A stretch of 64,000 bases of DNA from Pseudovibrio japonicus. GTDB taxonomy: Bacteria > Pseudomonadota > Alphaproteobacteria > Rhizobiales > Stappiaceae. Below, piece after piece: positions 12,368 through 58,737 of the stretch. The stretch is taken from contig NZ_BMXE01000007.1 in the NCBI RefSeq assembly GCF_014651595.1, forward strand, positions 124,001-188,000, read 5' to 3'. Positions within the stretch are counted from its first letter, which is position 1. The number at the start of each line of letters is the position of its first letter. Position numbers and translations under genes: made by a program. The notes under the pieces were generated by a model, which made no database searches, was not told the origin of the DNA, and saw only the letters and a program-made list of their open reading frames with translations.

Positions 12368-14359
12368 ATGACTCTTAAAATGCTGGGGGGGCTTGTTGCT
12401 GCCTCGATGCTCACGTCTGCGGCGTATGCTGCAGACATTCATCCGCTTGATGGCCTGACAGGAGAGGAACTCAATGCGGTTCGCGCAGCACTGATCAAAG
12501 CCGAAGTTGCAAGCGATCAAACCCTTTATCCGCTGATTGAGCTTCTGGAGCCGCATAAACAAGCGGTACTAAGCAACGCGATGGATGGGCGTCTCGATCG
12601 TCGCGCCACAGTGCACTTTCAGGCAGACGGTAAGTTCCAACAGGCCGTCGTGAACATCACCAAGGGAACAGTTGAAAGTAATTCGGAGCTTGAAGGCCAG
12701 CCTATGATCATGCTGGCAGACTTTATGTCAGCCATGGAGATTGCGCTGGGGGATGAACGCATGGTCGCGGGTCTTGCTAAACGCGGTCTGACACCGGATG
12801 ACGTTTATTGTCTGCCGCTCACTGCAGGAAACTTCTTTAGCGATGCGGAACAGGGCAAACGCCTGATGAAGGTGCCGTGCTACGTGAACCCGACAGGCTC
12901 CAACTTCTACGCCAAACCGATTGAGGGATTGGTGGCTGTCGTAGAGCTTTCCGAGCGCAAGGTGCTTGAGGTTCTGGATGAAGGCGTCGTTCCACTGCCC
13001 GAAGATGCGTGGGGCTATTATGAGGAGGAGGTTGCCAAGCGCGTTGCGCTGCGAGCCAAAACCAATCCGGCACGTCTGCAACAGGATGGCGGCCCGAACT
13101 TCACGATTGAGGGCAGTGAAATCACATGGGACATCTGGAAGATGCGCTATCGCGTCGACAAACGTCCGGGCCTTGTGCTTTCACAAGTCAAAGCCAATGA
13201 TGGTGAGAACTGGCGCTCCGTGCTCTATCAGGCCTCTCTTTCCGAAGTGTTCGTGCCATATATGGACCCATCCGAGGGGTGGTACTGGCGCACCTATATG
13301 GACAGTGGCGAATATGGTTTCGGGCTGTTCTTAACACCGCTGCGCAAGAACGTGGATTGCCCGGACTACGCAACTTTCTTGCCTGCTCTCATACACGATG
13401 ATATGGGCCAGCCACTGGAGATCCCGGACGCGATCTGTATCTTCGAGCGTGATATCGGAGATCCGGCATGGCGCCATTTTGAAGTATTTGCCCAGTCCGA
13501 GACCGAATTCGTTCCCGCCGAAGGTCGCCCCGAAACGGAACTCGTGATCCGCACGGCCTCCGAGGTTGGCAACTATGACTACCTGATCGACTACCGCTTC
13601 AAGCAGGATGGGACGATTTACCTGAAGGTCGGTGCATCTGGTCTTGATGCGGTTAAAGGCGTTGCTTCCAAAAGCTTGAGCGATCCGACCGCTGCCGAAG
13701 ATACAAAATATGGCTCACTGATTGCACCGAATCTTGTGGCACCCTTCCACGACCACTACTTCAACTTCCGCTTGGACTTTGACGTGGATGGACCTGACAA
13801 CACCATGATGGTTCAGGAAATCGTTGGCGGTTCGCCTCCGGTCAACGTTCCGCGCCGCTCGCTCTGGACGGTCAGGAACACACCAGTCAAAAGCGAGCTG
13901 GAAGGCCGCTTCCGCCTCAGTTCCGCAAAGCCAAAAGCTTTTATGGTGATGAACAATAATGTGGACGGGCATCTGGGCCATAAACCGGCCTACATGATTC
14001 TTCATGGCAGCGTGTCCTATGCCCCGTTTGACTTTGAAAACGACGCCCCATTCGTGCGCAACCGCTATATTGAGTACAGCGTCTGGAACACAGCTTATGA
14101 TCCGGAAGAGCGCTACGCCGGTGGTGCATTGGCCATGGGGTCTGATGGGTCCGACGGGCTGGCTGAATGGGTGAAGCAGGACCGAGAGCTCATCAACAAA
14201 GATGTGGTTACATGGTTCTCCGCTGGCTTCCATCATGTACCGCGTTTGGAAGACTGGCCGGTGATGTCGACCGAATGGAAGACAATCCACATCCAGCCGA
14301 TGAACTTCTTCCCACGCAACCCGGCGCTTACAATCCGGTTGCCTGACGAAACCAGTTAA
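12368..14359 (+). CDS. Copper-containing primary-amine oxidase, secreted
   Basis: Oxidises primary amines (for example tyramine or phenethylamine) to aldehydes with release of ammonia and peroxide in the periplasm. The 663-residue protein has a Sec signal (MTLKMLGGLVAASMLTSAAYA). Key sites are present: the catalytic Asp in YMDSGEYGFG (D312), the topaquinone precursor Tyr403 in the NYDY motif, the copper His-x-His 461/463 in HDHYFNF, and the third copper His near 622-623 in GFHHVPRLEDWPVM. The length matches the bacterial family without the extra N-terminal D1 domain of E. coli TynA. GGGAGG precedes the ATG. It follows the FeaR-like gene and ends at a strong terminator. No dedicated aldehyde dehydrogenase is adjacent. 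Confidence 0.94.
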   Translation: MTLKMLGGLVAASMLTSAAYAADIHPLDGLTGEELNAVRAALIKAEVASDQTLYPLIELLEPHKQAVLSNAMDGRLDRRATVHFQADGKFQQAVVNITKGTVESNSELEGQPMIMLADFMSAMEIALGDERMVAGLAKRGLTPDDVYCLPLTAGNFFSDAEQGKRLMKVPCYVNPTGSNFYAKPIEGLVAVVELSERKVLEVLDEGVVPLPEDAWGYYEEEVAKRVALRAKTNPARLQQDGGPNFTIEGSEITWDIWKMRYRVDKRPGLVLSQVKANDGENWRSVLYQASLSEVFVPYMDPSEGWYWRTYMDSGEYGFGLFLTPLRKNVDCPDYATFLPALIHDDMGQPLEIPDAICIFERDIGDPAWRHFEVFAQSETEFVPAEGRPETELVIRTASEVGNYDYLIDYRFKQDGTIYLKVGASGLDAVKGVASKSLSDPTAAEDTKYGSLIAPNLVAPFHDHYFNFRLDFDVDGPDNTMMVQEIVGGSPPVNVPRRSLWTVRNTPVKSELEGRFRLSSAKPKAFMVMNNNVDGHLGHKPAYMILHGSVSYAPFDFENDAPFVRNRYIEYSVWNTAYDPEERYAGGALAMGSDGSDGLAEWVKQDRELINKDVVTWFSAGFHHVPRLEDWPVMSTEWKTIHIQPMNFFPRNPALTIRLPDETS

Positions 14360-19048: not shown

Positions 19049-20731
19049 TCAGGCGCCGACCATTTGCTCTTTAATTTCACTTGCAAGCTGGTCTGCGATT
19101 GGGCCGACAACCACCTGTACAGAACCGGCAGCTGGTTTGATCACGCCGTGGGCGCCAAGGCGTTTCAAGGCGCCCTCATCAATCTGGGTGTTGCTGACAA
19201 CTTCCAGACGCAACCGGGTCGCACAGGCATCCACACTCTTGATGTTGGCTTGCCCGCCAAGTGCACGCAGATACGATGCAGCGCGATTATCGGCAGGAGC
19301 TGGTGCTGAGCTGGCACTCAGGACCGCCTTCACTTCAGCGGAGAGCTGGTCTGCGATTGGACCAACAACCACCTGCACGGAACCCACAGCTGGCTTGATC
19401 AGTCCAAACGCGCCGAGTGCTTTGAGCGGAGCCTCTGTGATGATGGCGTTGTCCTTAACCTTCAGGCGCAGGCGAGTTGCACATGCATCCACCTCTACGA
19501 TGTTTTGAGCACCTCCCAGTGCTTTCACAAAGCCAACTGCTTTATTGACTTCCTCTACCGGAGTTGCTGTAGCGTCATCTTGAGCTTCTGCGTCCTCTTC
19601 ACGGCCAATTGTGTGAAGGTTGAACAACTTGATCGCACCAACAAACAGGAAGTAGTAGATGGCGAAGAACACAGCGCCAACTGGGATTAGCAGAAGCGGC
19701 TTGGTGGAAATGCCAAAGTTGATAACATAGTCAAACAGACCGGCAGAGAACCCGAAGCCCAACTTCACGCCCAGCACATCCATGACAGCCATAGATACAC
19801 CAGTCAGGATAGCGTGGATCACGAACAGTGCAGGTGCAAGGAACATGAACGTAAATTCGATCGGCTCTGTAATGCCGGTCAGGAAAGACGTCAGGCCCAT
19901 TGAAAGCAGGACACCACCCACCGCAGCGCGGTTTTCAGGCTTAGCACAGCGGTACATGGCCAGACATGCGGCTGGCAGACCAAACATCATGACCGGGAAG
20001 TAACCCGCCATATAAGAGCCAGCGGTTGGGTCCAGAGCAAAGAAGCGGTTCAGGTCACCCGTGATCACGTCACCAGCTGCATTGGTGAAGTCGCCAAGAA
20101 TAAACCAAACGATGTTGTTCAGGATGTGGTGCAGACCCGTGATGATCAGCAGGCGGTTCAGCATGCCATAGAGGAACAGACCAAACTCACCCATGTGGGT
20201 TAGGCCGTCGGTCAGGGCAGTCAAAGCACTGTCAAATGTTGACCAACCATAGCCGAAGAAAGCGGCAACGACCAATCCTGCGAAACCGGTGACGATTGGC
20301 ACAAAACGGCGGCCACCGAAGAAGGCAAGGTAATCCGGAAGTTTGATGTCCTTGTACTTGTTGTAAAGCGTACCAGCGACAATCCCCATGATAATGCCGA
20401 TTGGAATGGAGATACGGCCTTCCATGTTAGTCGCCATATCTGGATCAAGGTTGGCCAGGACGACGGCTCCCTGTTGGGCAATCAAGAACCCAACAAGGCC
20501 AGCAAGACCTGCTGCCCCGTGATTTTCCTTAGCAAAGCCAACCGCAATACCTACTGCAAACAACATACCCAGATTGGCAAAGATCGCGCCACCTGCGGAG
20601 GCGATGAAGGGAATGTTGAGAAGGTCTGGTTGACCGATGCGCAGCAAAATTGCTGCCACGGGCAACACAGCGATTGGAAGCATCAAAGAGCGGCCAAGTT
20701 TCTGGACACCCGCGAATGCGTTGTTTGACAT
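19049..20731 (-). CDS. PTS permease EIIC with two EIIB domains (GlcNAc/glucose class)
   Basis: Inner-membrane sugar importer that phosphorylates its substrate. The 560-residue protein starts with LGRSLMLPIAVLPVAAILLRIG, the first helix of the glucose/N-acetylglucosamine EIIC class; ITEPIEFTFMFLAP is the conserved substrate-site loop. After a linker (about 375-392) two EIIB domains follow, each with the phosphocysteine motif VDACATRLRL (Cys near 415 and near 500). About 80-residue EIIB units in tandem are not the standard NagE layout. The EIIA domain is absent. It is the last gene of the operon murQ-like/EI-like/PTS and lies 15 bases after the EI-like gene. The co-located NagB-II and NagA support GlcNAc, and the MurQ-like etherase supports MurNAc, as substrate. 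Confidence 0.93.
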   Translation of the reverse strand: MSNNAFAGVQKLGRSLMLPIAVLPVAAILLRIGQPDLLNIPFIASAGGAIFANLGMLFAVGIAVGFAKENHGAAGLAGLVGFLIAQQGAVVLANLDPDMATNMEGRISIPIGIIMGIVAGTLYNKYKDIKLPDYLAFFGGRRFVPIVTGFAGLVVAAFFGYGWSTFDSALTALTDGLTHMGEFGLFLYGMLNRLLIITGLHHILNNIVWFILGDFTNAAGDVITGDLNRFFALDPTAGSYMAGYFPVMMFGLPAACLAMYRCAKPENRAAVGGVLLSMGLTSFLTGITEPIEFTFMFLAPALFVIHAILTGVSMAVMDVLGVKLGFGFSAGLFDYVINFGISTKPLLLIPVGAVFFAIYYFLFVGAIKLFNLHTIGREEDAEAQDDATATPVEEVNKAVGFVKALGGAQNIVEVDACATRLRLKVKDNAIITEAPLKALGAFGLIKPAVGSVQVVVGPIADQLSAEVKAVLSASSAPAPADNRAASYLRALGGQANIKSVDACATRLRLEVVSNTQIDEGALKRLGAHGVIKPAAGSVQVVVGPIADQLASEIKEQMVGA

Positions 20732-20746
20732 TTTATGTCCTCCCTC

Positions 20747-21481
20747 TCAGTGCTCTCGTGAGACTGAGACTAACCCATTTATTATGGTCGGCATTTTCTC
20801 TTCAGGTTCGGAGAGCAAATACCTCACATCAGTTGATGTTTCGGTGTTCAAAGCAGACCCAGCCCAAACTCTGGAATCTGCCAGACGTAAAGTGCGAATA
20901 AGCGTTTTGACTGGAGCGCTCATCGCTGGTGTTCCTGCAAGTTCAGTCACACCCAACCCAATAGGAAAGCGAGCAGCGGCCTGATCGTAGGCAGCTGTGC
21001 CACATACTGCGACCCTCCGTTTTTTGGAGCAGGCGCTGCTGGTAATATGATCGTTCGATGGCAATGCGTCCTTTGTGGACGTGTGCGCTGGATTTCCGCA
21101 GTCCATTACCAAATCGAACTGGTTTAAATCGCGGGTGCTGAGGGAGAAGAACACTGCTTCTTCCGCAAGCTGTGCTGTGCTTAACGCAGCAGTCGGAACT
21201 ATAAATAGGGCGCCAATATCAATGGGGTCTTCTGGACCCAACCTGCTCTGCCCTTGGTCTTTATTTATCATGCGGACGCGCAGTTTGTTGACATCGGCTG
21301 CCATTGGAACCAAGCGCCTTTTAAGGCCATAAGCCTCGAAGTGCAAGCTCGCCCGCAGCAATGCGCTTAAAAGCGCCTCGTTCTTAAATATTCCGCACTC
21401 AGACGCAGGCATTTCATCGGCGCCTTTACTTAGTGCGGTTGCATAGGCATGAACAGGAGTTTGTTGCTCTTTTAGCATCAT
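20747..21481 (-). CDS. Free-standing, degenerate C-terminal domain of PTS enzyme I
   Basis: A 244-residue protein aligning, from memory of E. coli EI, with the second half of the PEP-binding barrel: LLSALLRAS, RRLVPMAADVNKLR, DIGALFIVPTAALSTAQLAEEAVFFSLSTRDLNQFDLVMDCGN, VAVCGTAAYD and IGLGVTELAGTPAMSAPVKTLIRTL. The N-terminal HPr-binding/phosphohistidine domain and the first barrel strands are missing. Active-site positions look lost: the metal Glu of the VETPAA motif is Ile, the Asn of GTND is Arg (STRD), and the Arg of DRGN is Cys; the Asp and the acid Cys remain. It overlaps murQ by four bases and is followed 15 bases later by the PTS permease, so it is probably translated. A regulatory or scaffold role is speculation; a decaying gene is the alternative. 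Confidence 0.78.
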   Translation of the reverse strand: MMLKEQQTPVHAYATALSKGADEMPASECGIFKNEALLSALLRASLHFEAYGLKRRLVPMAADVNKLRVRMINKDQGQSRLGPEDPIDIGALFIVPTAALSTAQLAEEAVFFSLSTRDLNQFDLVMDCGNPAHTSTKDALPSNDHITSSACSKKRRVAVCGTAAYDQAAARFPIGLGVTELAGTPAMSAPVKTLIRTLRLADSRVWAGSALNTETSTDVRYLLSEPEEKMPTIINGLVSVSREH

Positions 21482-22383
21482 GAGCTGCTGGCCTTGCTCG
21501 GAAGGGCGTGGCGCAATACACCGTTGGCGAGGTGGAGCTGATCGTCAATTTGGTCTGCAGGCACTCCGGCCAATCCCAACACCGCGCGCTTGACTGAACC
21601 CAATTCTGTAAACGCATTTCTTGCCAGCTCTTCGGAGACTTCAGCAATTTGCGCAGTCATGGTGACACAGCGGTTCTGTAGTTTTTTGTTAGATGGCCGC
21701 ACGTTGACCATAAGGTTGTCGTGCACGGCGCCCAGCTGTGTCATGAGCCCTGTCGAAAACAGATTGAAGAGGATTTTTTGAGCGGTTCCAGCGCCCATCC
21801 GGGTGGACCCAGCGATCACTTCCGCTCCTGTTTCGGCCACGACCATATATTGGGCGACAGCTTCCATGTCTGACTGGCTGTTATTGGCAAAGCCCACTGT
21901 CAGTGCGCCAAGGTCGCGTGCTCTTTTCAGTGCTTGCAGGGTAAATTCAACAGCACCGCTGGCAGAAACGCCAATCACAACATCTGCCTCACAAACTCTG
22001 AGTGCATTGATCCTGTCGATGGCAACATCTCCAGAATCTTCAAGAGCATCAGACAAGCCATTGGTCAAGTCAGTGCCGCCTGGCAACACAACAACCATGC
22101 GTTCCTCTGGCCAGTCAAATGTCGAGCCCAGTTCAAGGCTATCAAGTAGGGAAATGACGCCGGAGGAGCCTGCCCCCACATAAATGAGCCGACCGTCGGT
22201 GGTGCGGAGGTGATGGGCAGCTGCTTGGATGGAGCGTGAGAGAGACGGCAGGGCTGGTAGCACAGAAGCGGTGGCGCGCATTTGACCATCCCACAGCGCA
22301 GACAGAATTTCACTGGTCTCCCAGGTGTCCAGTCCGCGATACTTGCTTGAGATTGCTTCTGTGTTTTTTGACATTTCCCCCAC
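21478..22383 (-). CDS. murQ: N-acetylmuramic acid 6-phosphate etherase (MurQ-like)
   Basis: Cleaves the lactyl ether of MurNAc-6-phosphate to give GlcNAc-6-phosphate. The 301-residue SIS protein matches MurQ at LDTWETSEIL, GRLIYVGAGSSGVISLLDSLELGSTF, VVIGVSASGAVEFTLQAL, GAEVIAGSTRMGAGTAQKILFNLFSTGLMTQLG and NLMVNVRPSNKKLQNR. The first glycine loop reads GAGSSGVISLLDSLE rather than GAGTSGRLGVLDASE, so it is divergent, but the STRM-AGTAQK and NLMV signatures are specific. It may start at 22383 (MGEMSKN) or nine bases later at MSKN. It is first in the minus-strand operon; a TGGYAT repeat pair lies 18 bases before the start. Confidence 0.88.
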   Translation of the reverse strand: MGEMSKNTEAISSKYRGLDTWETSEILSALWDGQMRATASVLPALPSLSRSIQAAAHHLRTTDGRLIYVGAGSSGVISLLDSLELGSTFDWPEERMVVVLPGGTDLTNGLSDALEDSGDVAIDRINALRVCEADVVIGVSASGAVEFTLQALKRARDLGALTVGFANNSQSDMEAVAQYMVVAETGAEVIAGSTRMGAGTAQKILFNLFSTGLMTQLGAVHDNLMVNVRPSNKKLQNRCVTMTAQIAEVSEELARNAFTELGSVKRAVLGLAGVPADQIDDQLHLANGVLRHALPSKASSS

Positions 22384-22400
22384 CCGACGTAGCGTCTAAA

Positions 22401-22417
22401 TGGCATTACATTGGCAT
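22401..22417. promoter_or_regulatory. TGGYAT direct-repeat operator copy 1
   Basis: TGGCAT at 22401-22406 and again at 22412-22417, 11 bases start to start, just upstream of the murQ-like start. Probable GntR binding site controlling the minus-strand operon; an additional TACCAAT half-site lies at 22431. Confidence 0.6.
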
Positions 22418-22462
22418 TTCTTTAACCTAGTACCAATTATTTCCTTATGCAACATAAAATTA

Positions 22463-22479
22463 ATGCCAAAAGGATACCA
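22463..22479. promoter_or_regulatory. TGGYAT direct-repeat operator copy 2 (inverted orientation)
   Basis: ATGCCA at 22463-22468 and ATACCA at 22474-22479; on the minus strand this reads TGGTAT-N5-TGGCAT with the same 11-base period. Confidence 0.55.
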
Positions 22480-22620
22480 AAGCGGAGATGCTTTGGATAT
22501 AAACAGGCCCGTTTTATAGATATATCATTGAAATATATGGAAATAATAGCGATAAATAAGAAGTATTACGAATGCATACAAAATCTTTCGGAAAAACTAT
22601 CATAAGCGATACTTGCAAAA

Positions 22621-22637
22621 TGGTATGTTATTGGTAT
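22621..22637. promoter_or_regulatory. TGGYAT direct-repeat operator copy 3
   Basis: TGGTAT at 22621-22626 and 22632-22637, 32 bases before the GntR start codon at 22669. The same 11-base spacing suggests one regulator binds all three copies and autoregulates. Confidence 0.6.
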
Positions 22638-22668
22638 TTTGAATTATCGTCGTGAAATTGGAAATCCT

Positions 22669-23430
22669 ATGTCTCTGATTGGGAAGAAACTCGGTGCGCT
22701 TCAGCCAACGGATTTGTCCGCTGATTTGCCACTCCCGTTGTATCTGCAATTGGCGAAGCATCTGCGCGCGCAGATAACAAGCGGCAAGCTGGGGGCCAAC
22801 GAATCCCTGCCCGCTGAGCGGGAGTTGGCTGAGTTCCTGAATGTGTCCCGCGTGACGGTCCGCAAAGCGCTGGGGGTGCTGGCGAAGGAAGGGTTACTGA
22901 GCAACCGTCAAGGGTCCGGTTGGTTCACCAATTCCAGTCCCTATGTTGAGCAGCGGCTGTCGACGCTCACCAGTTTTACAGAGGACATGCAATCTCGAGG
23001 GCTCAACGCTGGCGTCAGCTGGTTGGATCGAACAGTGTCCGCTGCAACCCCTGAAGAGACCCTTTTGCTGAATCTGAGGCCAGGAGAGCGCGTGAGCCGT
23101 TTGAACCGGCTGCGGCTTGCTGGCGATAAACCCTTGTGCATTGAGCTGAGCGTGCTTCCGGTTAAGTACCTTCCCGATCCGTTTGCCGTTCAGGGCTCCC
23201 TCTACGGCCACTTACGAGAACTGGGAGCCGCCCCTTTCCGGGCTTTGCAACGACTGAGTGCGGTGAGCTTGATCGCGGATCTGGCAGGGAAGCTTGATCT
23301 GCCGGAAGGAGCCCCTGCTCTTTACATCGAACGGCGTACCTTTCTTAAAGATGGTGCGCCTCTTGAATTTGTGTCTTCCCACTATAGAGGCGACGCTTAC
23401 GATTTCGTCGTAGAGCTTGCGCTGGCGTAA
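22669..23430 (+). CDS. GntR family regulator (HutC/UTRA type), likely amino-sugar repressor
   Basis: A 253-residue regulator with an N-terminal winged HTH (PLYLQLAKHLRAQITSGKLGANESLPAERELAEFLNVSRVTVRKALGVLAKEGLL) and a UTRA ligand domain (about 95-250, with RLRLAGDKPLCIELSVLP and PLEFVSSHYRGDAYDFVVEL). Domain layout equals NagR/NagQ/DasR-type proteins, which sense GlcN-6-P or GlcNAc-6-P. Start ATG 22669 was chosen over the upstream TTG at 22639 because similarity begins after it. It is followed 21 bases later by the NagB-II gene and then nagA; the TGGYAT repeats on both sides of the divergent gap are its probable sites. Confidence 0.93.
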   Translation: MSLIGKKLGALQPTDLSADLPLPLYLQLAKHLRAQITSGKLGANESLPAERELAEFLNVSRVTVRKALGVLAKEGLLSNRQGSGWFTNSSPYVEQRLSTLTSFTEDMQSRGLNAGVSWLDRTVSAATPEETLLLNLRPGERVSRLNRLRLAGDKPLCIELSVLPVKYLPDPFAVQGSLYGHLRELGAAPFRALQRLSAVSLIADLAGKLDLPEGAPALYIERRTFLKDGAPLEFVSSHYRGDAYDFVVELALA

Positions 23431-23451: not shown

Positions 23452-24489
23452 ATGGACTTAAAGCAACCCGACCGAACGCTCCTGGGCAAGGAAGCACTGG
23501 AAACTGCGGACCGGACCGTGCTTCAGTTTGAGCGCAACGCCGCTGTCCTTGCAGATCTTGGTGAGCGCCTAAAAAAGAACCCGCCACGCTTTGTTGTAAC
23601 GTGCGCCCGTGGCAGTTCTGATCATGCTGCGATGTATGGTAAGACGCTTATTGAAAACTATGCGGGCCGGGCCGTCGCTTCCGTCGGTATGAGCATCGCT
23701 TCTGTCTATGAACGCAGTCTTGACCTGCAGGACGCCTTGTTTATCGCGGTTTCACAATCCGGCCAAAGCCCTGATCTCTTGCATTTAACAGAAATGGCCA
23801 AGGCGCAAGGCGCACTAGTGCTTGCACTGGTGAATGAGGAAACAGCCCCGCTCAACGATCTGGCAGATGTGGCCATCCCATTGTGTGCGGGACCTGAGCG
23901 CAGTGTGGCGGCAACCAAGTCTTATATTTTGGCCTGTTCCGCCTTCCTCAGCCTCGTTGCTAAGTGGACGGACAATCCGGATCTTCTGAAAGCTATGGAG
24001 CAATTGCCAGAAGCGCTGCGCGCAGCCTCCAAGTTGGACTGGTCTCCGGCACTTGATCAGTTGCATGACACAAGAAACATGTTCGTTCTGGGCCGTGGGC
24101 TGAGCTTCGGTGTTGCGCTGGAAGCTGCCCTCAAACTGAAGGAAACCAGCCGTATCCATGCTGAAGCCTTTAGTGCAGCTGAGGTGATTCATGGACCTCT
24201 CGGCCTTGCCGGGTCGGGTCTGCCTGTTCTTGCGTTTGGCCAGAACGATGCAGCAGCTGACTCATTGCGCCAGACGATTGAACGGTTTGCATCTTTGGAA
24301 GGCAAAGTCCTTTCCGCTCTTGATGTGCCAGGTACGCAGAAGCTTCCGGTTGTTTCTGATGTTCATCCAGTCATCGAGCCGCTGTGCCAGCTGCAGAGTT
24401 TTTATCTGGCTGTTCAGCACCTTGCCATCAGCCGGGGAATTGACCCGGACAATCCACCGAACCTTCGCAAAGTGACGGAGACGCGGTAA
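23452..24489 (+). CDS. Glucosamine-6-phosphate deaminase, NagB-II (SIS) type
   Basis: Converts GlcN-6-P to fructose-6-P and ammonia using a GlmS-like double SIS fold without the glutaminase half. The 345-residue protein shows VTCARGSSDHAAMYGK, FIAVSQSGQSPDLLHL, PERSVAATKSYI, NMFVLGRGLSFGVALEAALKLKETSRIHAEAFSAAEVIHGPLGL and the C-terminal HLAISRGIDPDNPPNLRKVTET. This signature is typical of NagB-II/AgaS relatives adjacent to nagA. It lies between the GntR gene and nagA, overlapping nagA by one base (TAATG). An AAAAAAGGC element precedes the start. Confidence 0.92.
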   Translation: MDLKQPDRTLLGKEALETADRTVLQFERNAAVLADLGERLKKNPPRFVVTCARGSSDHAAMYGKTLIENYAGRAVASVGMSIASVYERSLDLQDALFIAVSQSGQSPDLLHLTEMAKAQGALVLALVNEETAPLNDLADVAIPLCAGPERSVAATKSYILACSAFLSLVAKWTDNPDLLKAMEQLPEALRAASKLDWSPALDQLHDTRNMFVLGRGLSFGVALEAALKLKETSRIHAEAFSAAEVIHGPLGLAGSGLPVLAFGQNDAAADSLRQTIERFASLEGKVLSALDVPGTQKLPVVSDVHPVIEPLCQLQSFYLAVQHLAISRGIDPDNPPNLRKVTETR

Positions 24490-25664
24490 TGCTTCAGTTT
24501 TTCACAGGAGCACCTGTGTTTGATGGCGAATGCATTCGTGAAGATATCGGCGTCGCTGTTGACGATGGAGTTGTTCTGGCTCTGCGTTCTGCTGATGAGA
24601 TACCGGAAGGTGCGCATGTTGTTCGGCTTGATCCTTCAGCAGTGCTTGCACCGGGTTTTCTTGATCTTCAGATAAATGGTGCGGGCGGGGTTCTCTTTAA
24701 CGCGGAGCCAACCGCTGATACTGCCATCCATATCGCAAAGTCTGTGCGCTGCCATGGCGTAACTCGCATTCTGCCGACGCTTATCACCGATTGCAAAGAA
24801 ACGCTTGCAAGCGCTTGTCAAACGATTGGTGAGGCCGCAGAAGATGAAATGAGCGGGGTCCTTGGTATTCATGTTGAAGGGCCGTTTATCAGCGTAGAAC
24901 GCAAAGGCATCCATAAGCCCTCTTATATTCGCGTGCCAGAAGAAGAGGATTTGGTCAGGCTGGCGGAACTCTCCTTAGCGCTAAGGCAGAATGGCGCAAG
25001 GCTCTTGCTGACCATTGCACCTGAAAATGTTCCCGATGATGCTATCGCCCGTTTTGCGCAAAGCGGAGTTGTGGTTTCCGCCGGGCATACGGCTGCTAGT
25101 TATGAGCGCATCCATGAAGCCATTGCCAATGGGGTGACCGGCTTTACGCATCTGGGCAATGCAATGCCAGCCATTCAAAACCGTGAGCCCGGCCCTGTTG
25201 CAGCCGCTCTTGCCTCTCGCGATACATGGTGTGGCCTCATTGTTGACGGGCACCATATTCATCCGGGTTTGATGAAGGTGATGCTTGCAGCCAAGCCTGA
25301 GGGCAAGGTGTTTCTGGTTACAGACGCAATGCCACCTGTCGGCACGGACATGCAGTCTTTTGAGCTCTACGGACAAACCATCCATCGTTCCGGCGGTCGG
25401 CTGGTTTCATCGCAAGGTGTTTTGGCTGGCGCTGATATTGATATGGCGAACGCCGTGCGCAACTGTACCACCCTTCTGGACCTGCCGCTGTCGGAGGCCC
25501 TCAGAATGGCCTCTCTGTATCCGGCAGGTCATCTGGGATTGGACAACCGCTTTGGTAGAATTGCGCCGGGATATACAGCGGACTTTGCTCTGATCACCAA
25601 AGACGTAGAGCCGCTGGAAACATTTGTTGCGGGCCGCTCTGTCTGGAAACGGTCAGAGGTGTAG
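24489..25664 (+). CDS. nagA: N-acetylglucosamine-6-phosphate deacetylase
   Basis: Removes acetate from GlcNAc-6-P. The 391-residue amidohydrolase contains APGFLDLQINGAGG, the metal Glu in GIHVEGPFIS, His in VVSAGHTAASYE and FTHLGNAM, and the catalytic Asp in FLVTDAMPPVGT. PGYTADFALI near the C-terminus is typical. It is the third gene of the plus-strand arm and completes the path MurNAc-6-P/GlcNAc-6-P to fructose-6-P together with the MurQ-like and NagB-II proteins. Confidence 0.95.
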   Translation: MLQFFTGAPVFDGECIREDIGVAVDDGVVLALRSADEIPEGAHVVRLDPSAVLAPGFLDLQINGAGGVLFNAEPTADTAIHIAKSVRCHGVTRILPTLITDCKETLASACQTIGEAAEDEMSGVLGIHVEGPFISVERKGIHKPSYIRVPEEEDLVRLAELSLALRQNGARLLLTIAPENVPDDAIARFAQSGVVVSAGHTAASYERIHEAIANGVTGFTHLGNAMPAIQNREPGPVAAALASRDTWCGLIVDGHHIHPGLMKVMLAAKPEGKVFLVTDAMPPVGTDMQSFELYGQTIHRSGGRLVSSQGVLAGADIDMANAVRNCTTLLDLPLSEALRMASLYPAGHLGLDNRFGRIAPGYTADFALITKDVEPLETFVAGRSVWKRSEV

Positions 25665-51599: not shown

Positions 51600-54500
51600 T
51601 CAAGTCACCGGAAACGCGCTGGTGATGGGGATCTCTATCTCGGGCATGATTGTTCTCACATCGATACTGATGGTCGCGCCGACCGCTTCGGTATTCTGTA
51701 CCTCCATAGTCGTGACGGTCTCCCAATCGTAATCGTTATCATTGACCCCATCCAGATCGACCTGAACCAGATAATGACCCTCCTCAGATTGCAGGACGCG
51801 AATATATTGTGCTGAAAAGTGGAGATATTGGCCCCAATCATCAACGCAGTAGTCATCAAGCAGTTTGGAGAGATTGAGGATGTCGTGCTCGCCTCCGCCC
51901 GGTGTCTTCAATTGGAAATCTGTGATGTGATCGGCGGCTCCATCCAGCTGTTCAAAGAAGAAGATATCATTCCCTTCACCGCCGGTAAGTTCATCCGCTC
52001 CTGCTCCGGCCGTTAGCTCGTCATCTCCTTCAAACCCGTTGATCACGTCGTTGTCCTCTGTGCTCTTGAGAATGTCATCACCAGGGGTTCCATTCACCGG
52101 ATTCTTGCGCGGGCTCTGATCGTCAGTCAGGATTGGGGTTACATGAATTGTTGTTGTAGAAGGACTAGAATCCCCGTCAACCGTATGCAGGATTACAGTG
52201 AGGTTGCGATCCTCCAGGCTCTCTGAAGTGCTCGAAAAGCCAACGGAATTAAGAAGCGCCTGATAAGTCTCTGCGCTCGCAGCGCCAGAAAATGTTAGTG
52301 TCAGAACGCCATTCCCATCTTCATCAAGGCTGTTGGTAACACCCGAAGCTGGATCAAAGACCAGTTCATCGCCATCCTTTGCGTTGCTCAGCGTGAGCGT
52401 CATTCCGGTGACTTCACTCTGAGCCCCATCAATTTCTGCGGACTTGGCAACTGCCAAGGTTTCTCCGCCAAGCTGATACGAGCTTTCGAAGTTCTGCTGT
52501 TGCAACACCTCCGATTGCTCAATCGCCATCAAAAGATCCGCGATTCGTAAAACATCCGAGCCAGTGAGCTCCGCTGGGGCGACCACCCGAAGCGTTGTTG
52601 CTGGTGAAATGTAGGGGCTGAGATCAAGGCTTATGGACTTCGACTGAGTGAGATCTTCCATGCTGGTGATCTCAGAGATCCGGTGGATCGACCCATCAGG
52701 TATCTCAACCTCGATGTAAAACAGTTTTCCAGGATCAACCTGCGCGAATTCTGCAGAGAGCGTGAGCGTTACCTCCGCGGATTGCGCGCCAGAAAGGTCG
52801 AAGGTTTTGGAAATGCTGACGGGCTCATCGTCTCCACCGTCGGAATTCTCAGCGCGATTAGACAGGACGAGTTCGCCGGAGGCTGTGTCGATGAAGATAT
52901 CGGAGGACGTATCATCACGTGCCCACGCGAGACCGTCGTCGCCGACTTCCGCCCAAGCGTTGGACTGGATAATGTCTGTGGGACGGACGGCGTAAGTGGC
53001 GTCTGTAAAGTCCCAGCTGACTTGGTAGCTGCCAGCTTCGCGTGTGTGCAGGTAAAGCGTGGGTGGGGGCACTTCGCCCGCAGTGACCTCAATGCGGTAG
53101 TGGTGCTCAGCTTCCGCCCCAGCAGGATCTTGCACAACCACGGTGATTTCGTAGAAGTTGTCTCCGTTGGCATCCGTGGGGGTGTTGAAGGAGATCACAT
53201 CCTTCCAGCTTACGTCGCCGGTTTGTTCATCTATGTTGAAACGGGCCTTGTCAGGCCCTTGGAGAAAAAAACGCAAACTGTCTCCGTCTGCATCCGCGGC
53301 ACTGGCTTGGAATACCTCGCTCGGGCCCGTGTCTTCCACTGTAAGGTGAGTGGGCGTGCCCTGAGTAACGCCGGTAAAGATTGGGATGTCATTGTCTGGC
53401 GCAAGCTCAATGGAAACAGTCACAGTTTCACTGCGTTCGCCATCGGCGTCCTTGATGTAATAGCTGAAGCTGTCGGTTCCGTTTGCGTGTTGGTGGCCGA
53501 GATAGTTAAACGACCCGTCTGGATTCTGCGTGAGGGTGCCCTTGGCAGGTACCAAGACGAGGTGGATCGTAAAGCCTCCGCTATCGATCATGTCATTGGC
53601 CAGCAGATCCAGAACAAGAGGTTTGTCCTCGGTGCCGGAAAACTGATCAGGCGTTGCGACAGACCTGCCATCTCCAAGTGTGAAGGAGAAGTTAAACGGA
53701 ATAGTATCGCCGTCTCCATCAGATGCCAGTGCAGAGAAGGAAAGGGGAGCTTCGCGTCCTGCCCCATGATCAATGGGGGTAAAAAATTCGACGTGGTACT
53801 GCCCGTTCCCGCTTCTGTCCAATGTTACCGTGAAGACCAGTGTTCCATCCTGTGTCTTGGCAGCAAGTTGGTTTCCAGTGCCATCAAGGGAATAGAAGAC
53901 CCGTGCGCCATTCACGGAGAAGGGGGCCGGAAGTCCGCTCATGTTGGAAGCAAAAGTGAGCGAAGTCCCAACCCCCGTGTCTGCGCCCCATTGAATGTTC
54001 AAGGCACCGGATTGCGCGTATGATGGCTCCCCGTTCAAGCGCGCTGCAAATAGATCGTTTTCAGATAGTGTAATGGCTTCAGGCGCTGAGCCAAGCACAG
54101 GCACGGTGTCGGCTATTGTGACCTGAAGCTGGCCCTTGGCGCTATCCCCATCCGTATCTGTCACTCTATAGTGCAGTTGGAACTGGTCGTGTCCGCCCGC
54201 ATGGTTCAAAGCGCTGTGCTGAGTAATGGAATAGGCGCCACTGCTCGAATTGAGCGTCGCACCAAAAATCGCCGTCGTCCCCTGAAAAAGCGTCAGAGTG
54301 GCGCCGTCAAGGCTCCAACTAAAGCCGGAGGGGAGGGGGGATTGAGCCCACGATATGCTCCCTTCATCTACACCAGTTGAGACAGGGAGTACACCGGTCA
54401 ATGACTGACTGTCCTCAGCTTGCTCCGGATCAGATCCGTTTGGAGCGAGTATCTCGTCATCAAGCGCCAGATCGATTTCCCTTTTAATCACAGGCACATC

Positions 54501-57500
54501 GTCTTTGATCGACACGTTGATATTGCCGTTTGCGGTATCACCATCTCCATCGGTAATCCGGTACGGCAGCTTGATGGTCTGCAAGTCCATCCCGTTTTGG
54601 TGCTGCAGGGGATTGTGCTGCGTGACGGTGTACGTGCCGCTGTTCCCAGTCAGTTGTGCAGTGAGGATGAGGGTCCGACCTTGCAGGATGCTAAGCAGGG
54701 CTCCCTCGACCATATAGGTGAGGCCGTCGACGGGATCTGGAAGCTGCCAAGTAATGTGCGCGCCATCTGCTCCGGTTGTGTGCGCAATATTGCCTGAGGA
54801 CGAGGGCTGTCCGGCATCAATACCCAGTTGGCTCTCATCAAACTCGATTGGGTCGAGTGGAAAGGCACGGGGGACACCGTCCTTGATGGCGACCTCGATA
54901 TGACCTGCTGCAGTGTCACCATCGCCATCTGTAATCCGGTAAGGCAGCTTGAGTGTCTGCAGGTCGATGCCGTTTTTGTGCTGCAGGGCGTTGTGCTGTG
55001 TCACGGTGTAGGCGCCGCTGTTATCGGTAAACTGCGCTGTGAGGATGAGAGTACCGCTTTGCAGAATGCTGAGCCGGGGACCGTCGACCATGTAGGTCAG
55101 GCCCTCGACCGGGTCAGGGAGTTGCCACGAGATGTGCCCACCGTCTGCGCCAGTAGTGTGAGGAATATTGCCTGAGCAGGAGGGGTGCCCGGCATCGGTC
55201 CCCAGGTGACTTTCATCAAACTCGATCGGATCGTGGGGCAAGGCGCGTGGCACGTCGTCTTTGATGGCGACCTCGATTTGCCCTTCCGCGCTGTCACCGT
55301 CCCCATCGGTGATCTGGTAAGGCAGCTTGAGTGTCTGCAGATCTACGCCGCTTTCGTGCTGCAACGCGTTGTGCTGGGTGACGGTGTAGGCGCCGGTGCT
55401 CCCTGTCAGTTGCGCAGTGAGGATGAGGCTCCCGCCCTGCAGTACGCTGAGCAATTGGCCCTCGACCATATAGGTGAGGCCCTCGACGGGCTCAGGGAGC
55501 TGCCACGTGACCTGTCCGCCATCGGCGCCTGTGGTGTAAGGCAGCGTGCCTGAGGAGGAGGGCGGTCCGGCCTCCGTTCCAAGATGACTTTCATCAAACT
55601 CGATCGGGTCTATTGGCAAGGCGCGTGGCACATCATCTTTGATGGCGACTTCGATATGACCTGCTGCAGTGTCGCCATCGCCGTCGGTAATTTGGTAAGG
55701 CAGCTTGAGTGTGTGCAGATCCATCCCGCTTTGGTGCTGCAGGGCGTTGTGCTGTTGGATGGTGTAGCCACCGTTGTTATCGGTAAGCTGCGCCGTGAGG
55801 ATGAGGGTGCCGCCTTGCAGAATGCTGAGTTGCTGGCCGTCGATCATGTAGGTCAGGCCCTCGACGGGCTCAGGAAGCTGCCATGTGATCTGTGCGCCAT
55901 CGGCCCCAGCGCTGTGAGGCAGCGTGGCTGAGGAGGAGGGCAGGCTGGGCTCGGTACCCAACTGGCTTTCATCGAACTCGATTGGGTCTACAGGAAAGGC
56001 GCGGGGCGCGTCGTCCTTGATGGCGACCTCGATATGGCCTGCTGCAGTGTCACCATCCCCATCCGTGATCCGATAGGGCAGCTTGAGTGTCTGCAGATCT
56101 AGCCCGTTTTGGTGCTTCAGCGCGTTGTGCTGAGTGACGGTGTATTCGCCGCCGCTGCCTGTCAGTTGCGCAGTGAGAATGAGGGTACCGCCTTGCAAGA
56201 TGCTGAGCAGCGGGCCGTCGACCATATAGCTCAGACCCTCGATAGGATCAGGAAGCTGCCACGTGATCTGTGCGCCATCCGCGCCTGTGTCGTGAGGCAG
56301 GGTGCCGGAGGCAGAGGGTTGAGCGGCATTGGTCCCGAACACGCTTTCGTCGAACTCGATCTGATCAAGGGGAAACGCTTTGGGTGCGTCATCCATTGAA
56401 GTGACGATTAGTTTTGCATCTACCTGCTGGCCGTGGCTGTTGGTGGCTGTAAAGCTTAGGTTAAAAATCGCTTCACCGCCGGATGTATGGCTGATTGGGT
56501 TGTGCTGGGTGGCGCTGTAACGGCCTGATGCAGAATCCAGCGTCACGGTCAGGACAACCTGTCCTGCCTGCAAGATAACGAATGTCTGCCCTTCCCGAAC
56601 GAAGTTGAAGCCCGCCATGGGCGAAGGGTCGTTCCACGTAAGAGTGACTGGACCCTGACCTGCGCTGACCGGCAAGGTTCCGGTTGTTGTGGTGCCTGAT
56701 GAGTCCGCCTCGCTTCCTTCGGGAAGAGCTGCCTCTGAATGTGTTGTGGACAGGTTCCATTCCAGCGGCATCAGGTCATCATGGATGCGCAGATCCAGAT
56801 AGGAAACCAGCGTGTCCGTATCTGCATCTTTTGCAACGAAACGGAAGCTCAGCAGAAGTTCTGAAGTGTCTGTTTCATGATCAAGCGGGGCGAATTGCTG
56901 ATAGCTGTAGGCACCGTTAAGCTGGGTTGGGTCAAGCGTAACCTTGAGGATGAGCTTTCCGTCTTGTGTGAACCCTTTCAATACGTGTTGGCCTTGCGGT
57001 CCAAATTCGGATTGAAAAAGAACCCGCGCACCGCCTGAGGTAATATCGAGCGGATCACCTGAGCGGCCGAGTGGGCGTCCGGCTGCATCAAGTGTAAAAA
57101 GCAGTGCGCGGGAGTTAGTTCCATCCACACCGAAATCAATGGCGAGTGTGCCGCTGAGCGAGATGCTGGTGGATGTGCGGAGGTCGGCCTCCTCAATGAC
57201 AGGCACGGGAACATCCTCGGCCTGAGTAACGATAGTATTTGGTTTGACGTAAAGGTCTGATGGGGTCAGCTCCGGAAACCTAATGCTCTCCGGTTGCGGT
57301 GTGAGTGCAGGCGGAACGAGCGTGCTGTAATCGCTCTCCTGTTTGCTCTCAAAAAGCTGCTTGGGCTGAATGCGGGTGTTCAGATTATCAAGAGCAGGCT
57401 CTCTTTGTGCGTTGTGAACATTTGTTTGTGCTGGTTTTGGCGGAGTAAACGCCTCTGCGTTCCTAGCATCGTCCTCCGTTTCGTTCTGGGCAGGGGAGGG

Positions 57501-57854
57501 GAGGGGATCCTGAAAGCTGCCAAGTCGCGGGGCGATTTCAACCGGTACTGCATCAAGAAATTTGCCTTGCGTGGCCATGGGGCCGGACGGCATGAGGATG
57601 AAGAATTCGTTGGCAGGTCCGCCAAAGAAACCTTCTATGACGATGATCTGCCCGTCGCTCTGGAGGATATGCAGCTCATCTCCATCGCGAATGAGGCGTG
57701 CTTGCCCGACGATCTTGGAAAGATCAACGAGCTGGCCTTCCTGCCGGATGAAAAGGATAGGGGTTTTCGATGGGGCCGGCGGTTCGTGAAGCAAGATCGG
57801 CGGCAGCGCGTTTTGCGAAGACGCATGTGCGGGCACTGAACGGGTCGTGGTCAT
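51600..57854 (-). CDS. Large type I secretion adhesin, T1SS-143-like repeats and RTX C-terminus
   Basis: A 2084-residue surface or secreted protein without Sec signal, exported C-terminus first by a type I system. Layout: N-terminal domain (about 30-105, LFIRQEGQLVDLSKIVGQARLIRDGDELHILQSDGQIIVIEGFF) as in LapA/BapA-type proteins; a low-complexity linker; two divergent repeats (about 227-500); five near-identical 126-residue repeats (about 500-1130, each with ITWQLPDPVEGLTYMVDG and YRITDGDGDTAAGHIEVAIKDD); two further repeats; a tandem-95/Ig-like and a cadherin-like domain; a lectin-like section; RTX nonapeptides (about 1921-1970, NVINGFEGDDELTAGAGADELTGGEGNDIFFF-like, calcium binding); and a C-terminal secretion region. 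ATG 57854 with GAGGAG upstream is preferred to a longer frame to 58049. No ABC exporter or membrane-fusion gene is nearby. Confidence 0.93.
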   Translation of the reverse strand: MTTTRSVPAHASSQNALPPILLHEPPAPSKTPILFIRQEGQLVDLSKIVGQARLIRDGDELHILQSDGQIIVIEGFFGGPANEFFILMPSGPMATQGKFLDAVPVEIAPRLGSFQDPLPSPAQNETEDDARNAEAFTPPKPAQTNVHNAQREPALDNLNTRIQPKQLFESKQESDYSTLVPPALTPQPESIRFPELTPSDLYVKPNTIVTQAEDVPVPVIEEADLRTSTSISLSGTLAIDFGVDGTNSRALLFTLDAAGRPLGRSGDPLDITSGGARVLFQSEFGPQGQHVLKGFTQDGKLILKVTLDPTQLNGAYSYQQFAPLDHETDTSELLLSFRFVAKDADTDTLVSYLDLRIHDDLMPLEWNLSTTHSEAALPEGSEADSSGTTTTGTLPVSAGQGPVTLTWNDPSPMAGFNFVREGQTFVILQAGQVVLTVTLDSASGRYSATQHNPISHTSGGEAIFNLSFTATNSHGQQVDAKLIVTSMDDAPKAFPLDQIEFDESVFGTNAAQPSASGTLPHDTGADGAQITWQLPDPIEGLSYMVDGPLLSILQGGTLILTAQLTGSGGEYTVTQHNALKHQNGLDLQTLKLPYRITDGDGDTAAGHIEVAIKDDAPRAFPVDPIEFDESQLGTEPSLPSSSATLPHSAGADGAQITWQLPEPVEGLTYMIDGQQLSILQGGTLILTAQLTDNNGGYTIQQHNALQHQSGMDLHTLKLPYQITDGDGDTAAGHIEVAIKDDVPRALPIDPIEFDESHLGTEAGPPSSSGTLPYTTGADGGQVTWQLPEPVEGLTYMVEGQLLSVLQGGSLILTAQLTGSTGAYTVTQHNALQHESGVDLQTLKLPYQITDGDGDSAEGQIEVAIKDDVPRALPHDPIEFDESHLGTDAGHPSCSGNIPHTTGADGGHISWQLPDPVEGLTYMVDGPRLSILQSGTLILTAQFTDNSGAYTVTQHNALQHKNGIDLQTLKLPYRITDGDGDTAAGHIEVAIKDGVPRAFPLDPIEFDESQLGIDAGQPSSSGNIAHTTGADGAHITWQLPDPVDGLTYMVEGALLSILQGRTLILTAQLTGNSGTYTVTQHNPLQHQNGMDLQTIKLPYRITDGDGDTANGNINVSIKDDVPVIKREIDLALDDEILAPNGSDPEQAEDSQSLTGVLPVSTGVDEGSISWAQSPLPSGFSWSLDGATLTLFQGTTAIFGATLNSSSGAYSITQHSALNHAGGHDQFQLHYRVTDTDGDSAKGQLQVTIADTVPVLGSAPEAITLSENDLFAARLNGEPSYAQSGALNIQWGADTGVGTSLTFASNMSGLPAPFSVNGARVFYSLDGTGNQLAAKTQDGTLVFTVTLDRSGNGQYHVEFFTPIDHGAGREAPLSFSALASDGDGDTIPFNFSFTLGDGRSVATPDQFSGTEDKPLVLDLLANDMIDSGGFTIHLVLVPAKGTLTQNPDGSFNYLGHQHANGTDSFSYYIKDADGERSETVTVSIELAPDNDIPIFTGVTQGTPTHLTVEDTGPSEVFQASAADADGDSLRFFLQGPDKARFNIDEQTGDVSWKDVISFNTPTDANGDNFYEITVVVQDPAGAEAEHHYRIEVTAGEVPPPTLYLHTREAGSYQVSWDFTDATYAVRPTDIIQSNAWAEVGDDGLAWARDDTSSDIFIDTASGELVLSNRAENSDGGDDEPVSISKTFDLSGAQSAEVTLTLSAEFAQVDPGKLFYIEVEIPDGSIHRISEITSMEDLTQSKSISLDLSPYISPATTLRVVAPAELTGSDVLRIADLLMAIEQSEVLQQQNFESSYQLGGETLAVAKSAEIDGAQSEVTGMTLTLSNAKDGDELVFDPASGVTNSLDEDGNGVLTLTFSGAASAETYQALLNSVGFSSTSESLEDRNLTVILHTVDGDSSPSTTTIHVTPILTDDQSPRKNPVNGTPGDDILKSTEDNDVINGFEGDDELTAGAGADELTGGEGNDIFFFEQLDGAADHITDFQLKTPGGGEHDILNLSKLLDDYCVDDWGQYLHFSAQYIRVLQSEEGHYLVQVDLDGVNDNDYDWETVTTMEVQNTEAVGATISIDVRTIMPEIEIPITSAFPVT
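54457..56346 (-). repeat. Five tandem 378-bp coding repeats
   Basis: The segment coding for FDES recurs at 54457, 54835, 55213, 55591, 55969 and 56347: exactly 378 bases apart each time, so every unit encodes 126 residues without any length change. Units differ by scattered substitutions. Such exact period points to recent duplication or homogenisation by recombination, and unit number may vary among strains. Confidence 0.92.
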
Positions 57855-57891
57855 AACTGCGTCTCCTCTCGTTTTGAGTTGATCATCACGC

Positions 57892-58737
57892 TCATTGCGT
57901 GTGTTGCTGCGCCAGAAGGTCCAGCTGTGATTGTTTCTTCTTTTCAAGCAACCGCACTGAGAGCCCCAGATGTCGCAGGGCGTTGGTGTGCTGAAACTTC
58001 TCCTGATAGTAGAGCTGCACGAGCGTTGTCTCTGAGGTAAACAGCGCAAGCTCCGCCTTCCGCAGCTCGTCGAGTGCGGTTAAAACCTGCGCGAACTGTG
58101 CAGGCGCCGCCAGCGTTTCTCTGCGTGCGGCCTCATAGGCACGTGCGCGGCGGGCGGCCTGAAACTGCAGCTTCTTGTGTCCTGCAAGTGCCAGCTGGAA
58201 CAGATTGCTCGGGCTGGCATCTTCTCTTGCGGGTCTGGATCCGTTCAACACAGATGGGGTGAGCACGGGCTGTAAGTGTGAGGCGCGCTTTCCGGTGAGT
58301 GCGGCGTATCTTGCATGAGCGACAAAAAGCTCGTTCTGGATCAAGACGCGGAGTTCCTTCATGGATACAAGTGTTTGATCCTGCAGGTCTTCTGCTTGTG
58401 AAACGATTTCCGGTGCTATCTCCTGACTGTTGCTTTTAAGGTGGGCGAGCAGGGTTTCCAGCTGAGTGGTATATGTGCCGTACAGGTAGAACACCCGCGT
58501 CTTCTGGTAGAGATCCAGATAGGCCTCCAAAACCTCAAGACAGTGCTGGTTTTGCTCTTCTAGCTTGGCGTACTCCCAACTTTCGGTGGTTTGTGCGTTG
58601 GTGAAGAGGAAATGGTCTTCAACCGCATCGCGAAACGTGCTGGCGCTGCTTGATGGGGCCGCGGCTGAAAGGACAACTGCGCAGGCCAGAGGGAGGGCCC
58701 AATTTTGTTTTAAACGCAGATTGTGCCACTCCAACAT
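57892..58737 (-). CDS. Short TolC-like coiled-coil envelope protein
   Basis: A 281-residue protein with a Sec signal (LPLACAVVLSAAAPSSSA). The rest is almost wholly helical: HCLEVLEAYLDLYQKTRVFYLYGTYTTQLETLLAHLKSNSQEIAPEIVSQAEDLQDQTLVSMKELRVLIQNELFVAHARYAALTGKRASHLQPV followed by FQLALAGHKKLQFQAARRARAYEAARRET and LDELRKAELALFTSETTLVQLYYQEKF. This follows the order of motifs in LapE/AggA-type TolC proteins (LEAYLDVLRA, ARYRRLTG, ALANNPAL, second helical pair), but is much shorter than the usual 430-480 residues and may lack the beta-barrel strands. It is 37 bases upstream of the adhesin and likely co-transcribed. Identification is by pattern only. Confidence 0.6.
   Translation of the reverse strand: MLEWHNLRLKQNWALPLACAVVLSAAAPSSSASTFRDAVEDHFLFTNAQTTESWEYAKLEEQNQHCLEVLEAYLDLYQKTRVFYLYGTYTTQLETLLAHLKSNSQEIAPEIVSQAEDLQDQTLVSMKELRVLIQNELFVAHARYAALTGKRASHLQPVLTPSVLNGSRPAREDASPSNLFQLALAGHKKLQFQAARRARAYEAARRETLAAPAQFAQVLTALDELRKAELALFTSETTLVQLYYQEKFQHTNALRHLGLSVRLLEKKKQSQLDLLAQQHTQ

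Follow-up and report, generated by a model that had tools for sequence, protein, structure and literature searches.

The window, a 64,000-nucleotide stretch of the Pseudovibrio japonicus genome, carries an amino-sugar PTS operon with an unusual middle gene. On the minus strand, murQ (21478–22383), encoding N-acetylmuramic acid 6-phosphate etherase, is the first operon gene; a 244-codon open reading frame (ORF) at 20747–21481 follows, and then a well conserved nagE-type EIICBB permease of the GlcNAc type (19049–20731). Divergent from these, on the plus strand, lie a GntR/UTRA regulator (22639–23430; PF07702, PF00392), a NagB-II-like glucosamine-6-phosphate deaminase with SIS domains (23452–24489) and nagA, the GlcNAc-6-phosphate deacetylase (24489–25664). 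Profile scores exceed the cut-offs for murQ (PRK05441 of NCBIfam, 269.2 bits), the permease (TIGR01998, 678.5 bits) and nagA (TIGR00221, 295.9 bits), and fall below them for murQ against TIGR00274 (195.6 bits, cut-off 302) and for the deaminase against NF046059 (347.4 bits, cut-off 430). With murQ, a GlcNAc-type EIICB with two EIIB domains and the divergent regulator, deaminase and nagA all in place, the amino-sugar PTS setting assigned by the first-pass annotation of this DNA stands.

The short ORF is tightly packed between its neighbors. Its ATG start overlaps murQ by 4 bases (ATGA) and its end lies 15 bases before the permease ATG, both as first described. A weak consensus scan of the minus strand of 20600–22700 found no sigma-70-like site, and a consensus scan of the same strand and interval gave four terminator-like sites, two of them inside the ORF (7 in all, against 2.2 expected). 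The permease on the minus strand at 19049–20731 contains two EIIB stretches in tandem; its counterparts in two congeners are similarly long (567 aa in G012, 559 aa in G003) and in two others short (480 aa in G008, 482 aa in G001), so the EIIB duplication seems variable within the genus. A second murQ, 43% identical to that of the window, lies at G000 C8:32553–33401, and in seven congeners the sole murQ copy is one at 40–44% identity.

The ORF encodes half of an enzyme I (EI) barrel. Residues 34–198 match positions 117–291 of the 293 in PF02896 (E 2.4e-15; 56.9 bits against a cut-off of 22.8), that is, the second half only, and no other Pfam family matches up to E 1. In particular, the EI N-terminal HPr-binding and phosphohistidine domains (PF05524 and PF00391) find no match in the ORF. 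Alignment to other EI barrels shows isoleucine at residue 94 in place of the metal-binding glutamate, arginine at 117 in place of the asparagine of the GTND motif and cysteine at 128 in place of the arginine of the DRGN motif; the second metal aspartate (D118) and the active-site cysteine (C160) are retained. Against the C-terminal domain of E. coli EI (PDB 2hwg), ORF residues 37–225 align with residues 369–567, the front half is absent, and the E, N and R are replaced. The profile search and the alignments thus bear out what had been read from the letters alone: a likeness to the second half of the barrel only, a missing phosphohistidine domain and three substituted active-site positions.

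Intact genes occupy the same position in close relatives. The closest genome matches to the ORF come from four of 15 congeners (47–49% identity), each inside an open frame of 852–854 codons. All four (G008, G012, G003 and G001) share the order murQ, an 851- or 852-aa EIIA-HPr-EI fusion and nagE, with a divergent regulator; the one such gene scanned contains EIIA, HPr, EI N-terminal, mobile and PEP-binding domains. Fusions of EI with HPr, usually with a IIA domain, are called multiphosphoryl transfer proteins (MTPs) in a passage of one paper (PMC2405797). The whole gene overlaps murQ by 4 bases in G008 and G003, by 1 base in G012 and by 4 or 1 in G001 depending on the start chosen, so the overlap in the window was probably inherited. 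The first-pass annotation, which favored a free-standing EI fragment kept for a function, had said beforehand that a full-length gene at this locus in close relatives would point to decay instead, and that is what four of the 15 congeners carry. Its suggestion of comparing neighborhoods did recover the murQ-EI-nagE order in congeners, with the EI member there a full-length fusion and not a short form.

Both ends of the fusion can be recognized in the ORF. Residues 1–23 (21413–21481, minus strand) match the EIIA start of the congener fusions without gaps at offset 0, as expected of a former EIIA N-terminus. At widths of 18, 23 and 25 residues, offset 0 outscores every other position in each of the four congeners; at width 20 it drops to second place in G001. 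When residues 2–23 were compared with the N-termini of G008, G012 and G003, none of 100,000 shuffles reached the observed score, and the ORF itself was the single one to do so among the 67,413 stop-free 22-mers that the six frames contain. At the DNA level the match is weak (29–33 of 69 bases), with offset 0 coming first in two of the four congeners, sharing first place in a third and being outscored in G001. An alignment of residues 1–32 onto EI was abandoned, the EIIA match being far better. The earlier description of the ORF was therefore right about the half barrel and missed that residues 1–23 are the start of a glucose-family EIIA, not EI.

From about residue 33 onward the ORF tracks the rest of the EI barrel as far as its end; the sole clear indel within the core is a single in-frame gap of 5 codons. 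This segment, approximately residues 33–228 (20798–21385), would be the former second half of the PEP-binding barrel down to the old C-terminus. The ancestral stop has been lost, and approximately residues 229–244 with the stop (20747–20797), as aligned with the four congeners and bounded by eye, would represent an extension of the frame into the former spacer before nagE. This 3' extension runs in frame for 15 codons, and its TGA stop lies just upstream of the ribosome-binding site of nagE. With the EIIA start at residues 1–23 and the EI barrel end from about residue 33, some 625 codons are missing between the two. The ORF is not an enzyme I, since it holds half a barrel and no complete PEP-binding barrel, nor an EIIA-HPr-EI protein, since the EIIA and HPr phosphohistidine domains are missing and only the first ~23 EIIA residues are left. 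It is nevertheless a real open frame: although the ancestral stop is gone, no internal stop or frameshift interrupts the 244 codons. It thus resembles the Pseudovibrio EIIA-HPr-EI MTPs of GlcNAc/MurNAc operons in its locus, its neighbors and the homology of both protein ends, which points to descent from an MTP gene located between murQ and nagE; unlike them, it has lost ~625 internal codons, the sites of the EIIA, HPr and EI N-domains and the ancestral stop.

Among the best 80 of 525 nagE loci, 64 have an EI-containing ORF of at least 803 aa upstream of nagE, eight have only a shorter EI ORF, each starting within 140 bases of a contig end, and eight have no EI match. An additional EI, of 581 aa, is present in L129. 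In three of the eight loci with no EI match, nagE itself starts less than 100 bases from a contig end, and the remaining five comprise two Pseudovibrio and three Azospirillum loci. The two Pseudovibrio loci (L057 and L058, 6001–7404), from two other strains, have a nagE of ~78% identity and no murQ or EI match in the flanks examined. The Azospirillum loci (L061–L063) keep the order of divergent nagR and murQ-nagE with no EI match between murQ and nagE, so an adjacent EI appears dispensable there too.

Among the genomes searched, the short form itself appears to be unique to this one. Among matches at E ≤ 1e-8 in 87 family genomes, 53 of which gave a match, there was no second free-standing short copy; the only short frames were the window's own, which spans 265 codons between stops, and one of 417 aa in G006, the next shortest EI frame being 668 aa. 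The G006 frame (L014, on its contig C4) lies at a different locus, where the ORF list shows an EIIA-HPr-EI-like gene beside a permease, split into two overlapping frames by either a frameshift or a sequencing error. We likewise found no short-form orthologue in 61 relatives at E ≤ 0.001, where the next shortest frame (585 aa) has a stop inside, and no short form away from a contig end among the best 80 of 525 nagE loci. A distinct conserved family of free-standing EI halves was accordingly rejected on the absence of a second short form from the 87 family genomes (E ≤ 1e-8). A search of titles and abstract openings in one open-access library found no published free-standing EI C-terminal half.

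The ORF has diverged far faster than its surroundings. Over 190 codons, the G008 protein is 80% identical to that of G003 and 76% to that of G001, whereas the ORF is only 45–50% identical to all four congeners; between the window and the same four, nagE is 74–86% identical and murQ 54–64%. The protein branch leading to the ORF measures 0.94, about four times the 0.245 of the concatenated flanking genes. In a joint codon model with branch lengths tied to the neighbors (nagE alone, or nagE, nagR and murQ), omega on the ORF branch was 0.386 and 0.362, respectively, against 0.077 and 0.079 for the rest of EI. Equality with this background was rejected (LRT 69.4 and 78.5), as was neutrality of the whole branch (dN/dS 1; LRT 28.3 and 42.6), a rejection that can reflect either constraint before a deletion or weak constraint after it. 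One-gene fits, in which branch tests are weakened by saturated synonymous sites, showed less relaxation, with an omega of 0.27 for the EI region (LRT 6.4 against background, 14.6 against neutrality) and, on the same branch, 0.27 for murQ (LRT 5.8), 0.10 for nagE and 0.07 for nagR. The omega figures would fit a branch under constraint over most of its length, with about one third of it neutral.

Which sites changed is as telling as how many. Across residues 33–224, with G008 as reference, the ORF keeps 43 (61%) of the 70 columns that 80% or more of EIs share, and 32 (41%) of the 79 shared by fewer than 60%. By comparison, 38 other EIs with 42–56% overall identity to G008 keep 79–90% of conserved and 11–28% of variable columns; these 38 include the C6 gene from the window genome itself and three sequences truncated at contig ends. 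The full comparison set comprised 66 EIs, namely 77 less six that were too close (the four congeners and two copies) and five with more than 10 gaps. The lowest of the 66 keeps 63% of conserved columns, but at 36% overall identity, and the next lowest keeps 79%. Judged by its variable sites, the ORF is a close relative of the congener genes, yet on these counts it has shed conserved sites with nearly the same ease as variable ones.

Base composition and codon usage point the same way. GC at codon positions 1, 2 and 3 is 55, 47 and 50% in the ORF, compared with 66–70, 43–48 and 36–59% in the four whole intact genes. Codon-usage likeness is −0.03 bits per codon, third lowest of 48 ORFs in the window (murQ scores 0.20, nagE 0.29), a supportive result only, as the two lower-scoring ORFs have Pfam matches.

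Structure prediction of the ORF alone, among the checks proposed at the outset, came out far worse than for an intact relative. AlphaFold gave the ORF a mean pLDDT of 59.4 and a pTM of 0.57; the corresponding half barrel of the intact P. exalbescens gene, predicted with the same 22 sequences, reached 87.9 and 0.88. Truncation alone is therefore not what spoils the prediction, though the lower pLDDT may stem in part from lower identity to the aligned rows (27–43%, against 49–80% for the control).

Combining these observations, we propose that the ORF at 20747–21481 is very probably a decayed deletion remnant of a dedicated EIIA-HPr-EI (MTP) gene in a GlcNAc/MurNAc PTS operon: it retains the second half of PF02896 only, intact 851/852-aa genes occupy the locus in four congeners, and constraint is relaxed. 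Ancestrally, an EIIA-HPr-EI fusion of ~850 residues would have lain between murQ and nagE. An in-frame internal deletion of ~625 codons (~1.9 kb) would then have fused the first ~23 codons of EIIA with the final ~195 of the EI barrel. The alignments show that the front half of the barrel is gone, along with the phosphohistidine sites of EIIA, HPr and EI. The substitution statistics show that EI constraint had little or no hold on the remnant as it subsequently drifted. A decaying gene was the second option of the first-pass annotation, and the intact congener genes at the locus and the strongly relaxed protein constraint favor it over the option preferred there.

Loss of this gene need not have cost the cell its amino-sugar uptake. 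The window genome encodes an intact 888-aa glucose-type EIIA-HPr-EI on contig C6, beside a PtsG-type permease. A gene in a 758-aa frame on C2 is a further EI by PF02896 and PtsP-like by length, the third strong PF02896 match is pyruvate phosphate dikinase-like (PF01326), and a fifth falls below cut-off. Since nagE is conserved on this branch (omega ~0.10), sugar uptake has probably been retained. The 888-aa C6 protein probably supplies NagE in trans, and with the conserved permease phosphorylated in this way the operon would probably still work.

Why the frame remains open deserves separate consideration. In neutral-drift simulations of 190 codons, with 25–30% of the branch neutral to match the observed identity and frameshifts outside the model, only 14–21 of 300 runs (5–7%) stayed free of stops, a result that weighs against simple decay. 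The open frame may reflect luck, the ORF having been chosen for being open, or a frame held open for a time. In the latter case the ORF could serve as a translated spacer of irrelevant sequence, kept open so that ribosomes passing from murQ to nagE prevent Rho-dependent polarity or couple nagE translation. The ATGA overlap with murQ, the stop 15 bases before the nagE ATG, the in-frame state of the one clear core indel and the lack of a sigma-70-like site in the weak scan of the minus strand of 20600–22700 would all suit such a role, as would a frame open longer than drift predicts. Yet the whole gene overlaps murQ too, a 5–7% chance is not strong for an ORF picked for being open, and chance could account for the 15 codons by which the frame extends into the spacer. 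We regard a translated spacer as possible but rather unlikely, and as compatible with a deletion remnant; both may hold. Should the frame be kept open by selection, the case would be a clean example of selection on translation and not on the protein.

Far less probable is the regulatory role preferred by the first-pass annotation, in which a non-catalytic half barrel is kept to bind EI, HPr or EIIB, or to sense PEP, and so tunes NagE and amino-sugar uptake. Under it the lost EI constraint would mark a change of function and not decay, and an open frame within an operon, a retained metal aspartate and active-site cysteine and a whole-branch omega below 1 count in its favor. The loss of conserved columns almost as readily as variable ones and a predicted fold much worse than the intact relative's weigh against it. 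So does its singularity: there is no orthologous short protein in the 87 family genomes (E ≤ 1e-8), and no short form clear of contig ends among the best 80 of 525 nagE loci. Strongly relaxed constraint also counts against it, and the regulatory pseudo-EI reading lacks positive support.

Two further origins for the ORF are scarcely credible. Collapse of an intact gene in the assembly was considered, the searches having included no second genome of the species, and rejected, as the retained part is itself strongly diverged (45–50% identity over 190 codons) although nagE is not, which also indicates that the loss of constraint is old. Horizontal acquisition of a distantly related EI half could account for the low identity (45–50%) to congener genes, but the best matches come from this very position in congeners, the ORF still starts with the EIIA N-terminus, and the variable columns agree with the congener in 41% of cases, against 11–28% for other EIs of equal identity, on which this origin was rejected.

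Bacterial pseudogenes can arise by internal deletion, and the deletion remnant proposed here is of this ordinary kind (internal deletion and drift with an intact paralogue), caught at an instructive stage. Like other such pseudogenes, it shows an in-frame join, accelerated drift and an intact paralogue elsewhere; unlike them, its frame is still open over 244 codons. The case illustrates how an operon can lose its fused phosphoryl-transfer gene and still conserve its permease, a situation that implies cross-talk from a second EIIA-HPr-EI. There is a warning in it, too: an open frame with operon overlaps is by itself no evidence of a new regulator.

Elsewhere in the window, a 2149-residue protein at 51600–58049 on the minus strand combines DUF5801, bacterial Ig/cadherin-like and RTX calcium-binding repeats and is probably a secreted adhesin. 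A copper amine oxidase (PF01179, E 1.6e-119) at 12368–14359 on the plus strand adjoins an AraC-like regulator ORF, named by eye.
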